From Methanosarcina barkeri str. Wiesmoor (lineage in GTDB: Archaea; Halobacteriota; Methanosarcinia; Methanosarcinales; Methanosarcinaceae), in assembly GCF_000969985.1 (NCBI RefSeq), contig NZ_CP009526.1, positions 2,480,001 through 2,544,000 on the forward strand: a DNA stretch of 64,000 nt. The letters run 5' to 3'. Position numbers and translations under genes: made by a program. Shown piece by piece: positions 25,345-36,396 of this stretch (its first letter is position 1; every line of letters starts with the position of its first letter). The notes below the pieces were generated by a model, which saw nothing but the letters and a program-made list of their open reading frames with translations, ran no database searches and was not told where the DNA came from.

Positions 25345-26490
25345 TCAGCTGTAGCTGATCCTGTAGATTGCATTATTTTTGTCATCCGAAACAAGCAGTG
25401 CCCCATCAGGCATCACAAGAACATCCACAGGCCTTCCCCAGGCCGCAAGTCCCTGAAGCCAGCCATTAGCAAAAGGTTCGTAACTTACAGGCTTTCCGTT
25501 CTCCAGCCTGACAAGAGAAACCCGGTATCCAATTGGAATTTTTCTGTTCCAGGAGCCGTGTTCTGCAATGAAGATCTGGTTTCTGTACTCTTCAGGAAAC
25601 ATTGTACCTGTGTAAAAAGTCATTCCAAGGGCAGCCACATGAGGCCCCAGCTTCATTTCAGGAGGTGTGAATTCTGAGCAGTTCCTGAGTTTCCCGTATT
25701 CAGGATCTGGAATATCTCCACCGTGGCAATAAGGAAAACCGAAATGCATTCCCTTTACAGGCGCCCTATTAAGTTCATCCGGAGGCTCATCATCTCCAAG
25801 CCAGTCCCTTCCGTTGTCAGTAAACCATAATTCTCCGGTCCTGGGATTCCAGTCAAACCCGACACTGTTCCTGACACCCTTTGCAAAAATCTCAAGCTGG
25901 CTTCCATCAGGTTCCATTCTCATGATTGTTCCGTACCTTTCGTCCTCTCCCTCCTTATTACAAACATTGCACGGCATTCCTACAGGCACATACAGCTTTC
26001 CGTCAGGCCCGAATTTGATATATTTCCAGCCGTGTGAGCGATCGGACGGGAAATTATCGTTCACTACAATAGGTTCAGGCGGATTTTCAAGCCTTGCTTC
26101 GATGTCATCATAGCGGATCACCCTGGAGACCTCAGCGACATATAGCGAACCGTTCCTGAACGCCACCCCGTTTGGCATGTCTAGGCCCTCAGCAAGCACA
26201 AGAACCTCGTCGGCTTTACTATCATTGTTCCGGTCAAGAACTGCATAAACTTTCCCTGTATCCCGGCTTCCGACAAAGATAGTGCCATTAGGGCTAAGCG
26301 CCATTGACCTTGCACCCTCAATATTCTCAGCATAATAATCAATGGAAAAACCGGGTGGAAGCTCGATACAGTTAAGTCCTGTCCCGTTATCTCCGCAATC
26401 ATTAAGTGGTATGGTTCTGAGAACCGCATAAGCTACAAAGATAAGTGCAATGATTGCAAAAAAACCAAGTATTACTCTTGTTCCCTTCAT
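25345..26490 (-). CDS. Membrane-anchored PQQ-type sugar (sorbosone/glucose) dehydrogenase-like protein
   Basis: 381 residues. An N-terminal hydrophobic helix (~8-26) is a signal or anchor. The rest is the six-bladed propeller of the soluble-glucose-dehydrogenase/sorbosone-dehydrogenase family: FVGSRDTGKVYAV, DMPNGVAFRNGSLYVAE, GPDGKLYVPVGMPCNVC, GVRNSVGFDWNPRTGELWFTDNGRD, AEHGSWNR and WGRPVDVLVMPDGALLVSDD. The conserved His, Arg and Asp of the family are present, but PQQ synthesis genes are not known from this neighbourhood, so the cofactor is uncertain. ATG 26490 has ggtgggga upstream. It is downstream of the ATP10-like gene through a chain of mini-ORFs. Confidence 0.85.
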   Translation of the reverse strand: MKGTRVILGFFAIIALIFVAYAVLRTIPLNDCGDNGTGLNCIELPPGFSIDYYAENIEGARSMALSPNGTIFVGSRDTGKVYAVLDRNNDSKADEVLVLAEGLDMPNGVAFRNGSLYVAEVSRVIRYDDIEARLENPPEPIVVNDNFPSDRSHGWKYIKFGPDGKLYVPVGMPCNVCNKEGEDERYGTIMRMEPDGSQLEIFAKGVRNSVGFDWNPRTGELWFTDNGRDWLGDDEPPDELNRAPVKGMHFGFPYCHGGDIPDPEYGKLRNCSEFTPPEMKLGPHVAALGMTFYTGTMFPEEYRNQIFIAEHGSWNRKIPIGYRVSLVRLENGKPVSYEPFANGWLQGLAAWGRPVDVLVMPDGALLVSDDKNNAIYRISYS

Positions 26491-26606
26491 TTCCCCACCA
26501 TTTTTTGAGATTCTATCATTTCCCTACTATTTTTTGAGATTCTATCATTTCCCTACTATTTTTTGAGATTCTATTATTTCCCTACTATTTTTTGAGATTC
26601 TATCAT
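26491..26606 (-). repeat. Four 29-bp tandem repeats forming ATGA-coupled mini-ORFs
   Basis: Units at 26578-26606, 26549-26577, 26520-26548 and 26491-26519 (minus-strand order). Each unit reads atgatagaatctcaaaaaat and then a ggga-containing SD-like end. Three units encode a 10-residue peptide, MIESQKIVGK or MIESQKMVGK. The first ATG overlaps the TGA of the upstream gene, the unit-2 stop overlaps the unit-1 ATG, and the unit-1 stop overlaps the dehydrogenase ATG (all ATGA). Unit 26549-26577 has ATA in place of ATG. Confidence 0.85.
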
Positions 26607-27220
26607 ATGAGAATTTCTGCAATCTCAAAAAGTTCAATTTCAGTCTCAGGTCTAGAATACCCTTGCCCTTTCCAGCGGATAATTCCCTTCGGGTCTAGCA
26701 AAAAGACATAGGCAAGGTTTGTATCATCCATTCCAAGAGTTTTCTGATAGCCGGAGTAATCTCCATAAAAAGTAACTACGTTGCCATGTTTTTCTACTGG
26801 AATCCCACTTCTCATACCTGAGTCGATTGCCCAGGAGACGATCTTCCAGGCTTTGTTTATCATCGGAATTTCATAGACTGCAAACCTGCTGTCTTTTCCA
26901 AATTTCCTTTCAAAAGGCCGAGTCCAAGAATCAATCATATCCTGGGCACTACGCACAAAAGCAATACAGATGAGTATCACCCTTCCCTCCAAAGCCCCTG
27001 GAAAAGTTACGACGTTACCTGCAAGTGATTTTGATGTGATTTCCGGAAAAGGCTGTCCGATAATATTTTTTTCAGTTTTTTCAGGATAAGCATCCCTTTG
27101 ATTAATTGCCTCGTTCTTCGAAGATTCAACTTCTTCTGAAATAATCTGCTCTAAATTCTCCTGATCTTTTTTAATTAAGCTCCCCCCGTTTGAAATTAGG
27201 GAATAAAGATGAAAAGACAT
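26603..27220 (-). CDS. ATP10-like thioredoxin-fold protein
   Basis: 205 residues. After ~50 low-complexity residues comes a thioredoxin-like fold without a CxxC pair: NIIGQPFPEITSKSLAGNVVTFPG, VILICIAFVRSAQDMIDSW, then NLAYVFLLDPKGIIRWKGQG. This matches the ATP10 family (named for a yeast F1Fo-assembly factor), common as a stand-alone protein in methanogens and bacteria. The first residues are poorly supported as coding; ggggggag at about 27180-27187 is the only strong ribosome-binding site and would suit a later start with an unusual codon. The stop is shared with the first mini-ORF, so it probably heads an operon with the dehydrogenase. Confidence 0.72.
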   Translation of the reverse strand: MSFHLYSLISNGGSLIKKDQENLEQIISEEVESSKNEAINQRDAYPEKTEKNIIGQPFPEITSKSLAGNVVTFPGALEGRVILICIAFVRSAQDMIDSWTRPFERKFGKDSRFAVYEIPMINKAWKIVSWAIDSGMRSGIPVEKHGNVVTFYGDYSGYQKTLGMDDTNLAYVFLLDPKGIIRWKGQGYSRPETEIELFEIAEILI

Positions 27221-28140: not shown

Positions 28141-28673
28141 TTTATTAGGAAGCCATAATTCGCATCGGCCAGCCCACTTTTTTCTATTTTTACGATTTCG
28201 TTTTAAGCGAAATTTGACGAATAACAAATTGAAATAATATTGAAAGTGTTTTAACGGAGTGTGGTTAGAGTATAGTAAAAGTAATACCAGTAGCTGATTC
28301 GACCCACCCAAAAAACACACCCGAGCAGCCAATTGTGAAATTCTCAACTTGAGAGGATATTCACAATTGATTGACACTATTTTTTGAATTTTCCGGTTAT
28401 GACTTGTTGGGTGAACTGTGACCCCCCACCCTTCACGGGAATTTTATTCAGAATATTGTTTTTCATGTAATGAACTATGTATTCACCAAATCAATTTTAG
28501 ACTATATTTAATTCAAAAAAGATGAAATGTCGGATTATGAAAAGAGGTAACATAAAGAAAGAGAAAAAGGAGAAGAAAAATCTTTAGAGAAATCTATGTT
28601 TGGTTTCTCTTCGTTATCTGAATCTTAGAGAAATCTATGTCTGGTTTTTTCTTCATTATCTGTATCATCCTGA
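28141..28673. other. Non-coding spacer in the decayed region
   Basis: No gene supported; the short open frames here have no recognisable product. A small duplication (ttagagaaatctatgtttgg and ttagagaaatctatgtctgg) stands at 28584 and 28624. Confidence 0.4.
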
Positions 28674-28945
28674 CCCCTTTGCAAAAATCTCAAGCTGGCT
28701 CCCATTGGGTTCCATTCTCATGATTGTTTCCGTACCGCTCGTCCTCTCCCTCTTTATTACAGACATTGCACGGCATTCCTACAGGCACATACAGCTTTCC
28801 GTCAGATCCGATTTTGATGTATTTCCAGCCGTGAGCACGGTCAGATGAGAAACTATCGTTCACCACAACAGGTTCAGGCGGATCAAGCCTTGCTTCGATG
28901 TCATCATAGCGGATCACCCTGGAGACCTCAGCGACATATAGAGCA
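28674..28945 (-). pseudogene. Copied fragment of the sugar dehydrogenase gene
   Basis: About 270 bases match 25880-26148 of the dehydrogenase gene at roughly nine bases in ten, covering YVAEVSRVIRYDDIEARL through GMPCNVCNKEGEDERYG. An extra t in the segment near 28730 breaks the frame and a codon pair is missing near 28885. No start, no fold. It ends where the M48 protease gene ends. Confidence 0.85.
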
Positions 28946-28978
28946 GCGCTCATTGAAGTATCTGGAAGAGAACAGCAC

Positions 28979-34408: not shown

Positions 34409-35449
34409 ATGAAAAAAGCTGTAAAGATGGCTCTGGCCCTTCTCATAATTGCTGTTCTGACTGTGCTTATTACTTATGCTACACTTCCTTATTTAAATTA
34501 TATTTTTGGGGCTTTGATCCTTTTTATTATATTTCGTCCTTTATACCATTTTCTCATAAGAAGACTAAAGATTCGGAAGCAATTCGCAGCCTTACTTATA
34601 ATAATAATTTCTATCTTTGTTGTACTAGTTCCTCTTTACTTTCTTTTGAATACAATCATCGACGAAATCGAACAGCTTTTAGTTAATCAGGCATCCATTC
34701 TCGCGTCTATTGAGGCTGGAGGTCACTTTTTAACTGATTCTCTCCTAAGGCTGAATATTCCTATAAATATATTCCAGGCCAAAATTGAAGAAAAAGCAAT
34801 GGAACTTGCTTCACAGGCCGTTAATTACACAAGTCTATTCATTGTGGAGTCAATCCAGAATCTAAGCCATCAGTCCATCGGGCTATTGATAATGTACTTT
34901 CTGCTTTACTACCTCTTTACTGAAGAAGATTCAGATTTTATGCGCCAGGTCTCTGTTGCAGTTCCTTTCAATGAAGAAAATACAGCCACTCTTCTGGATG
35001 AATTCCGAAAAATTGTTCGGACGACTCTTATCGCCAGCGGGGCAGTTGCTCTTGTCCAGGGTGGAATTCTGACTATAGTATTTGTTATCTTTAATATCCA
35101 GGGAGCTTTCCTCTGGGGCTTCATCGCAGCAATTCTATCCTTTTTACCTGTTGTCGGAGCGCCTTTTATTTGGGTTCCTGCAACTATTGTCCAGTTTTTC
35201 CAGAAGGACTATACTGCAGCGATCGCTATACTTGCAGCTGGGATTTTTATAAGTGTTATTGACAATTTCCTCAGGCCAATTATCCAGAAAAGAGTTGGAG
35301 AAATCCATCCATTTCTGTCCCTGCTTGGGGTTGTTATAGGAGTATCCCTTTTCGGACTGTTAGGAATCGTTATAGGTCCCCTCTTGCTTTCCTACTTTGT
35401 TCTGACCGTACAGATGTTTTCCAGAGAATACCTTTCTGGAAAGGAGTAA
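34409..35449 (+). CDS. AI-2E/PerM-family membrane transporter
   Basis: 346 residues. Seven to eight hydrophobic helices in the two-block layout of the family: pairs in residues 8-80, a central soluble loop (85-135), then helices to 335. The family signature is near IIDNFLRPIIQKRVGEIHPFLSLLGVVIGVSLFGLLGIVIGPLL. Transport substrates differ widely (AI-2, Na+/H+ exchange), so none is assigned. I take ATG 34409; an in-frame TTG at 34406 overlaps. Its stop codon lies inside the ribosome-binding region of the next gene. Confidence 0.85.
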   Translation: MKKAVKMALALLIIAVLTVLITYATLPYLNYIFGALILFIIFRPLYHFLIRRLKIRKQFAALLIIIISIFVVLVPLYFLLNTIIDEIEQLLVNQASILASIEAGGHFLTDSLLRLNIPINIFQAKIEEKAMELASQAVNYTSLFIVESIQNLSHQSIGLLIMYFLLYYLFTEEDSDFMRQVSVAVPFNEENTATLLDEFRKIVRTTLIASGAVALVQGGILTIVFVIFNIQGAFLWGFIAAILSFLPVVGAPFIWVPATIVQFFQKDYTAAIAILAAGIFISVIDNFLRPIIQKRVGEIHPFLSLLGVVIGVSLFGLLGIVIGPLLLSYFVLTVQMFSREYLSGKE

Positions 35450-35522
35450 AATGTGAAGATTGAAATACTTGGGTAAAGGAGTAAAATGTGAAGATCGAAA
35501 TACTTGGGTGTGAGTCTTTTGG
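35443..35522 (+). repeat. 35-bp tandem duplication of the start region of the UPF0282 gene
   Basis: ggagtaaaatgtgaagat-gaaatacttgggt occurs at 35443 and again at 35478, 35 bases apart. The first copy makes an eight-codon frame, GTG AAG ATT GAA ATA CTT GGG TAA (35453-35476), with the same ribosome-binding site as the real gene. The real GTG is 35488. Confidence 0.85.
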
Positions 35523-36396
35523 GGCAAGATCCCTTGCCTGCGTTGTAAAGACGGACGATAGAACGATACTGATCGATCCCGGAGTCGCACTTGCACGCTT
35601 ACGTTCAGGCCTTCTTCCTCACCCAATAGAGGTTGCAGCTGCTTTCAGGATAAGAGATAAAGTTCTTTCTGCATTTGAGCAGGCTACAGATGTCGTTATC
35701 AGCCATTTTCACGGTGACCACATGCCAATGAGGGCTGAAGATCCTTATCAGCTCCCAATGGAAGTTCTACCTTCACTTGGCGGGATAAATTTCTGGTGTA
35801 AAGGCCCAGAAAAAATTTCAGGCCTTTCTTCAAAGAGGAGGCGTGAACTTTCGGATTTTCTGGGTTTCTCTCTCCCGGCTTCGGAAGGCGTGAAGTCTGT
35901 CAATATGGAGTTTTCTTCTCCTGTCCCTCATGGAGCCAGGGAAAAAGGCTTCGGTACTGTAATGATGACCCGGATCTGCGAGGGAGATGAGGTTTTTGTC
36001 TATGGTTCTGACATCCAGCTTCTGGACAGAGAAACAGTCCTCAAAGTGCTCGCCTGGGAACCTACAATTGTTTTTGCCTCAGGTCCTCCTCTTTATCTTT
36101 CACACCGCGTCCCTGAAGCAGGAAAAGAGGCTTCAGAAAATGCCCTCCTTCTGGCCAGGCATGTGGATACCCTGATTCTGGACCATCATCTACTCAGGTC
36201 TTTTGAAGGATACAGCTGGTTAAAAGAATTGGCTGGAAAGGTTGAAAGCCGGGTACTCTGTGCTGCAGAATTTATGGGAAAGGCTCCGGACCTTCTTGAA
36301 GCTCAGAGAAAAAAACTTTATGAAAAAATGCCCGTACCTTCAGGCTGGCACGAAGCCTATTCAAAGGGTAAAGTAGGTTTTGAGGAATATCTCTGA
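35488..36396 (+). CDS. UPF0282-family metallo-beta-lactamase-fold protein
   Basis: 302 residues from GTG 35488, with aaagga upstream. MKIEILGCESFGARSLACVV opens the fold, LIDPGVAL follows, and VISHFHGDH (near residues 70-78) is the metal-binding HxHxDH motif; further ligands are likely at YGSDIQ and LDHH. The size and the Cys-x-Ser-x-Gly start match the archaeal UPF0282 family, a metal-dependent hydrolase family of unknown substrate. It follows the permease gene with only a duplicated leader between, so the pair is probably cotranscribed. Confidence 0.82.
   Translation: MKIEILGCESFGARSLACVVKTDDRTILIDPGVALARLRSGLLPHPIEVAAAFRIRDKVLSAFEQATDVVISHFHGDHMPMRAEDPYQLPMEVLPSLGGINFWCKGPEKISGLSSKRRRELSDFLGFSLPASEGVKSVNMEFSSPVPHGAREKGFGTVMMTRICEGDEVFVYGSDIQLLDRETVLKVLAWEPTIVFASGPPLYLSHRVPEAGKEASENALLLARHVDTLILDHHLLRSFEGYSWLKELAGKVESRVLCAAEFMGKAPDLLEAQRKKLYEKMPVPSGWHEAYSKGKVGFEEYL

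Follow-up and report, generated by a model that had tools for sequence, protein, structure and literature searches.

A four-unit 29-nt array between an ATP10-like gene and a sugar dehydrogenase gene of Methanosarcina barkeri, most likely a minisatellite expansion of the junction spacer

Between an ATP10-like gene and a sugar dehydrogenase gene of Methanosarcina barkeri str. Wiesmoor lie four near-identical units of 29 nt, three of which open a short reading frame. The junction belongs to a stretch of 64,000 nt (contig NZ_CP009526.1, positions 2,480,001 to 2,544,000), referred to below as the window. It raises the question whether the mini-ORFs hand ribosomes from one gene to the next or merely accompany a repeat. 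An earlier note on this DNA had suggested a translational relay formed by duplication, with a repeat number that could tune the coupling. In such a relay, ribosomes would reinitiate at each ATGA on their way from the ATP10-like gene to the dehydrogenase. Our analysis points instead to a lineage-specific minisatellite expansion of the junction spacer, with the dehydrogenase initiated mostly at the last unit and the mini-ORFs being incidental. We give this reading a probability of roughly 0.8. The junction comprises the following features, listed in the direction of transcription:

26603-27220, minus strand: ATP10-like gene, upstream of the array (ORF and Pfam PF05176, E 9.6e-14)
26578-26606, minus strand: unit 1 (ATGATAGAATCTCAAAAAATAGTAGGGAA), with mini-ORF 1 at 26606-26574 (MIESQKIVGK, stop TAA)
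26549-26577, minus strand: unit 2, which starts with ATAA, not ATGA, and has neither an ATG nor a mini-ORF
26520-26548, minus strand: unit 3, with mini-ORF 3 at 26548-26516 (MIESQKIVGK, stop TGA)
26491-26519, minus strand: unit 4, which adjoins the dehydrogenase and has ATGGTGGGG, with mini-ORF 4 at 26519-26487 (MIESQKMVGK)
25345-26490, minus strand: GSDH-type sugar dehydrogenase gene (ORF and Pfam PF07995, E 1.6e-19)

The Pfam matches bear out the gene identities given in the earlier note, and TRF and the unit coordinates agree on four 29-nt units between the two genes. TRF placed the array at 26487-26606 with a period of 29, 4.1 copies, 95% match and a score of 219, and a chance match can be dismissed. 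Read in the direction of transcription, units 2 and 3 conform to TAGAATCTCAAAAAATAGTAGGGAAATGA, whereas unit 1 has the 3' end AAATAA and unit 4 reads TAGAATCTCAAAAAATGGTGGGGAAATGA. As had been described, a Shine-Dalgarno-like GGGA is present in all four units, in the form AGTAGGGAA in units 1-3 and GGTGGGGAA in unit 4, and an ATG with a 10-codon frame in three of them. The peptide MIESQKIVGK had been assigned to all three frames; this holds for units 1 and 3 but not for unit 4, where isoleucine is replaced by methionine at one residue.

Both ends of the array overlap with codons of the flanking genes, again in line with the earlier description. The stop codon TGA of the ATP10-like gene (26605-26603) is preceded by an A, which gives ATGA, and is overlapped by the ATG of the first mini-ORF (26606-26604). 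On the other side the stop TGA of the last mini-ORF (26489-26487) overlaps the dehydrogenase ATG (26490-26488), which is followed by an A since codon 2 is Lys. The start codon and the N-terminus of the dehydrogenase are conserved in relatives. Within the array, mini-ORF 3 terminates in an overlap with the ATG that opens unit 4. Mini-ORF 1 has TAA as its stop, which leaves unit 2 without an ATG; the ATGA chain is broken there, and mini-ORF 1 and mini-ORF 3 are 25 nt apart. The claim that the mini-ORFs are linked by ATGA overlaps is thus correct for both array ends and for units 3/4 but fails at unit 2. Mini-ORFs 3 and 4 have ATGA on both sides, mini-ORF 1 has it on the upstream side only, and unit 2 on neither.

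A relay between the two genes would need an unbroken chain of stop/start overlaps, which the TAA of unit 1 and the 25-nt gap interrupt. The idea draws on the -4 ATGA overlaps at the ATP10 stop, at units 3/4 and at the dehydrogenase start, since -4 is the commonest coupled spacing (PMC12548453) and termination-reinitiation takes place in an archaeon, Haloferax volcanii (PMC10666635). Huber et al. (2023) reported that a gap of +22 nt abolished termination-reinitiation in this species and that an upstream reading frame of 15 nt was enough for reinitiation in the cases tested (PMC10666635). The junction resembles this system in its ATGA overlaps at either end of the array and at the border of units 3 and 4, but at unit 2 the spacing is larger than the abolishing one. 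Because 25 nt exceeds 22 nt, ribosomes from mini-ORF 1 are not expected at mini-ORF 3, and by this comparison coupling of the ATP10-like gene and the dehydrogenase via the mini-ORF chain is not expected either. From unit 3 onwards the chain is intact, with two steps, mini-ORFs 3 and 4, leading to the dehydrogenase. As a 15-nt frame suffices, ribosomes that initiate afresh at the weak sites of mini-ORFs 3 and 4 may be delivered to the dehydrogenase in small numbers. It is a far bolder and very improbable proposition that these last two mini-ORFs are a naturally amplified ribosome-delivery leader in which the number of units sets the supply to the dehydrogenase, and that other duplicated initiation regions in Methanosarcina work likewise.

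We compared the junction with that of G029, the closest genome in the comparison, in which the dehydrogenase is 96% and the ATP10-like protein 89% identical. The best named relative was M. spelaei with a dehydrogenase identity of 93%. The G029 junction has one 30-nt unit (TGA-TAAAATCTCAAAAAATGGTGGGGGAA-ATG), found in the context ...CTCATATGA-TAAAATCTCAAAAAATGGTGGGGGAA-ATGAAAGG, whose borders are the ATP10-like stop (aTGA) upstream and the dehydrogenase start (ATGa) downstream. Both ends of the junction are ATGA: in the ATP10-like gene an A closes the final sense codon and the stop is TGA, and in the dehydrogenase the start codon is followed by one for lysine. In G029 the frame from the ATP10 stop continues in frame into the dehydrogenase and forms an N-terminal extension of it, not a mini-ORF, which argues against the relay.

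With four units in this genome and a single one with the same borders in G029, formation of the array by duplication, as suggested in the earlier note, is well supported by the two sequences. The ancestral junction would have held one spacer unit with ATGA at both sides, one belonging to the stop of the upstream gene and one to the start of the downstream gene. These ATGA microhomologies would then have allowed slippage during replication, or unequal exchange, to copy the spacer to four units, and we infer slippage as the mechanism. Duplication between ATGA tetramers 29 nt apart produces exactly the array observed. Since the unit extends from one ATGA to the next, has a length of 29 (2 modulo 3) and an open frame, every new copy necessarily carries a 10-codon mini-ORF with 4-nt overlaps. 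The proximal sequence ATGGTGGGG(G)AAATGAA(A/G)GG was found again in several relatives, M. spelaei among them. Units 1-3 have the derived ATAGTAGGG in common, with two G-to-A changes that weaken the Shine-Dalgarno sequence, and unit 4 alone keeps the form of the relatives. The proximal form being common to relatives and units 1-3 being derived, the change was probably an expansion in this lineage rather than a loss of units in G029, although a larger ancestral array that lost units in G029 is conceivable.

The strength of the putative initiation sites was estimated by pairing with the anti-Shine-Dalgarno tail GGATCACCTCCT, which was verified at three places in the genome. Pairing amounted to -4.1 kcal/mol for units 1-3, -6.3 kcal/mol for unit 4 and -8.4 kcal/mol for G029, against a median of -5.7 kcal/mol for 127 predicted ATG starts and -2.4 kcal/mol for random 20-mers. 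About 22% of random 20-mers and 66% of starts had values of -4 kcal/mol or better. Weak upstream copies and a kept proximal form are as expected if only the site adjoining the dehydrogenase is used. Most likely, the dehydrogenase would be translated by ordinary initiation at the Shine-Dalgarno sequence and ATG of the last unit, and the mini-ORFs would be translated weakly and incidentally at most.

It is unlikely, in our view, that units 2-4 offer extra weak ribosome entry, with mini-ORFs 3 and 4 handing over by the -4 overlap. Such an arrangement would modestly raise dehydrogenase translation, or lower it by competition, independently of the ATP10-like gene. Units 2 and 3 do supply the ATGs that follow them, those of units 3 and 4, with a weakly pairing AGGG (-4.1 kcal/mol). 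Initiation regions are also duplicated elsewhere in the genome, as at 35440-35509, where this genome has two copies and G029 three. However, units 1-3 pair more weakly than the dehydrogenase-adjoining site, and arrays over start regions are depleted, not enriched, in the survey given below. Four near-identical 29-nt units before a gene might also be a repeated control site in DNA or RNA, such as regulator iterons, a promoter or a structured leader. Folding of the leader RNA, however, was no better than that of shuffled sequences (z 0.67) and showed no unusual structure, no Rfam family matched the leader, and among the 31 genus genomes searched the unit is conserved no further than G029, which makes a control site highly improbable. 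Scans of the junction for sigma-70 promoters and terminators were set aside as their models fit an archaeon poorly.

Twelve orthologous ATP10/dehydrogenase gaps, this one included, measured 18-112 nt (the others 18-107 nt) and had largely unrelated spacers, so that no fixed coupling distance has been kept. A conserved chain of mini-ORFs was not found at these 12 junctions. Such variable gaps lacking a conserved chain are again at odds with the relay. Considering also the gap at unit 2, the weak Shine-Dalgarno sequences of units 1-3, the absence of the array from the other genomes checked and a geometry that comes automatically with duplication between two ATGA tetramers, we regard the relay as very unlikely, and tuning of the coupling by the repeat number is not supported. 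Independent arrays were present at the orthologous junction in KYL-1 (15 nt x 5.3), DH2 (11 nt x 4.5) and G003 (17 nt x 2.5). The array of strain KYL-1 is perfect (GAATTCTGAGGAAGG) and starts at the ATP10-like stop codon. We considered whether the junction is a hot spot for arrays; clear ones were seen at 3-4 of 14 orthologous junctions. For short co-directional junctions the corresponding figures were 7 of 54 and 4 of 48 in the two samples, and at such small numbers the rate at this junction is not clearly unusual.

In its own genome, similarity and pattern searches located the 29-nt unit at this junction only. A pattern search of 31 genus genomes did not find the array in the 30 others; matches to the unit beyond its own locus were limited to one at the G029 ortholog and one imperfect copy elsewhere in the genome of G007. 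A similarity at G000:C2:141148-141238 (73% over 90 nt) belongs to a different array of shorter period that has a TATTTTTTGA-like motif in common with this one; we took it as coincidence.

Among known systems, the mycobacterial MIRU comes closest as a precedent for mini-ORFs repeated at coupled junctions, and MIRU copies occur in tandem in the senX3-regX3 case. Like a MIRU, the 29-nt unit is intergenic and contains a short frame that overlaps its neighbours at the ends in ATGA fashion, in units 3 and 4 and on the upstream side of unit 1 but not in unit 2. A review describes MIRUs as ORF-bearing elements whose insertion at start codons leaves a -4 overlap (PMC12548453), and a mobile interspersed repeat of this type could in principle have entered a coupled junction here. 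Unlike MIRUs, which are dispersed and thought to be mobile, the 29-nt unit is the native spacer, its chain is broken and it resides at one locus; this single location, with no dispersal among the 31 genomes searched, contradicts a dispersed element, and insertion of a MIRU-type repeat is extremely improbable.

By the criteria tested, the 29-nt array is a Methanosarcina minisatellite. Subirana and Messeguer (2019) described that Methanosarcina stands out for satellites among prokaryotes, with 406 per genome in M. vacuolata and 328-379 in M. barkeri (PMC6749651). The array has at least 4 tandem units of 10-200 nt (29 nt x 4.1, 95% match) and its length differs between close relatives, with four units here versus one in G029. 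It shares with these minisatellites that it is tandem and non-coding, has a unit of <30 nt and a unique sequence, and varies in copy number between relatives. It differs from them in covering an initiation region and in having ends that are codons of the flanking genes, whereas most arrays in this genome are located away from start regions.

To place the array among its kind we surveyed 400-kb stretches of its own genome (G000, around the window) and of G029 with TRF at periods of 12-120. The G000 stretch held 180 arrays, 129 of them outside ORFs, and the equal-size sample of G029 held 192. Extragenic tandem arrays are thus very dense in these samples, at about one per 3 kb. The array at 26491-26606 ranked 7th by score among the 129 non-ORF arrays. 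Turnover is high, as only about four of the 23 arrays with both flanks placed in G029 had a nearly equal length there. An enrichment of arrays at start regions would have hinted at a function, but the opposite was found: with gene starts predicted by a crude rule, arrays covered 6 start regions versus 12.0 +/- 3.5 expected from random placement in G000 and 6 versus 16.5 +/- 3.4 in G029. Selection against the disturbance of start sites could account for this scarcity. In the 400 kb, a second ATGA stood 12-60 nt upstream of 14 of 61 ATGA starts and created a relay-making frame in three, this junction included, and 11 of 163 ATG genes had a mini-ORF ending in an ATGA overlap. Geometry of this kind is therefore not rare.

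Further duplicated sequences were also noted. At 35440-35509 of the window (plus strand), a 35-nt unit is present twice at the stop of an upstream permease-like gene. It includes, for an MBL-like gene (35488-36396), the Shine-Dalgarno sequence, the start codon and the first codons. The extra copy in the window gives a 7-codon frame, VKIEILG, and in G029 about three degenerate copies are present. Another duplicated initiation region lies at G000:C2:2377432-2377467 (plus strand), where the 15-nt unit AATATGAGGAAAAGG x 2.5 directly precedes a 113-aa ORF and the frame of the array terminates by overlapping the likely start of that ORF in an ATGA. Moreover, a degenerate dehydrogenase fragment at 28669-28950 of the window (minus strand), 73% identical to residues 113-207 and with one stop, lies upstream of the intact dehydrogenase at a distance of about 2 kb and is apparently a pseudogene from a partial duplication.

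Three points weigh against the minisatellite reading. The intact chain of mini-ORFs 3 and 4 may bring some ribosomes to the dehydrogenase. Units 1-3 differ little, so that selection on their sequence is conceivable, although these units may simply be young. In addition, arrays in start regions are rarer than random, and this one is atypical of the genome in that respect. We nevertheless infer that the array as such has no function.

The junction array is ordinary for Methanosarcina and is of small cautionary value in annotation. No selection is needed to produce an apparent mini-ORF chain with ATGA overlaps; duplication of a spacer that has ATGA at the stop on one side and at the start on the other, and whose length is 2 modulo 3, is enough. 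This calls for caution before relay leaders or micropeptides are annotated in repeat-rich archaeal genomes. If it is true that arrays at initiation sites alter translation, Methanosarcina would be a source of natural copy-number variants.
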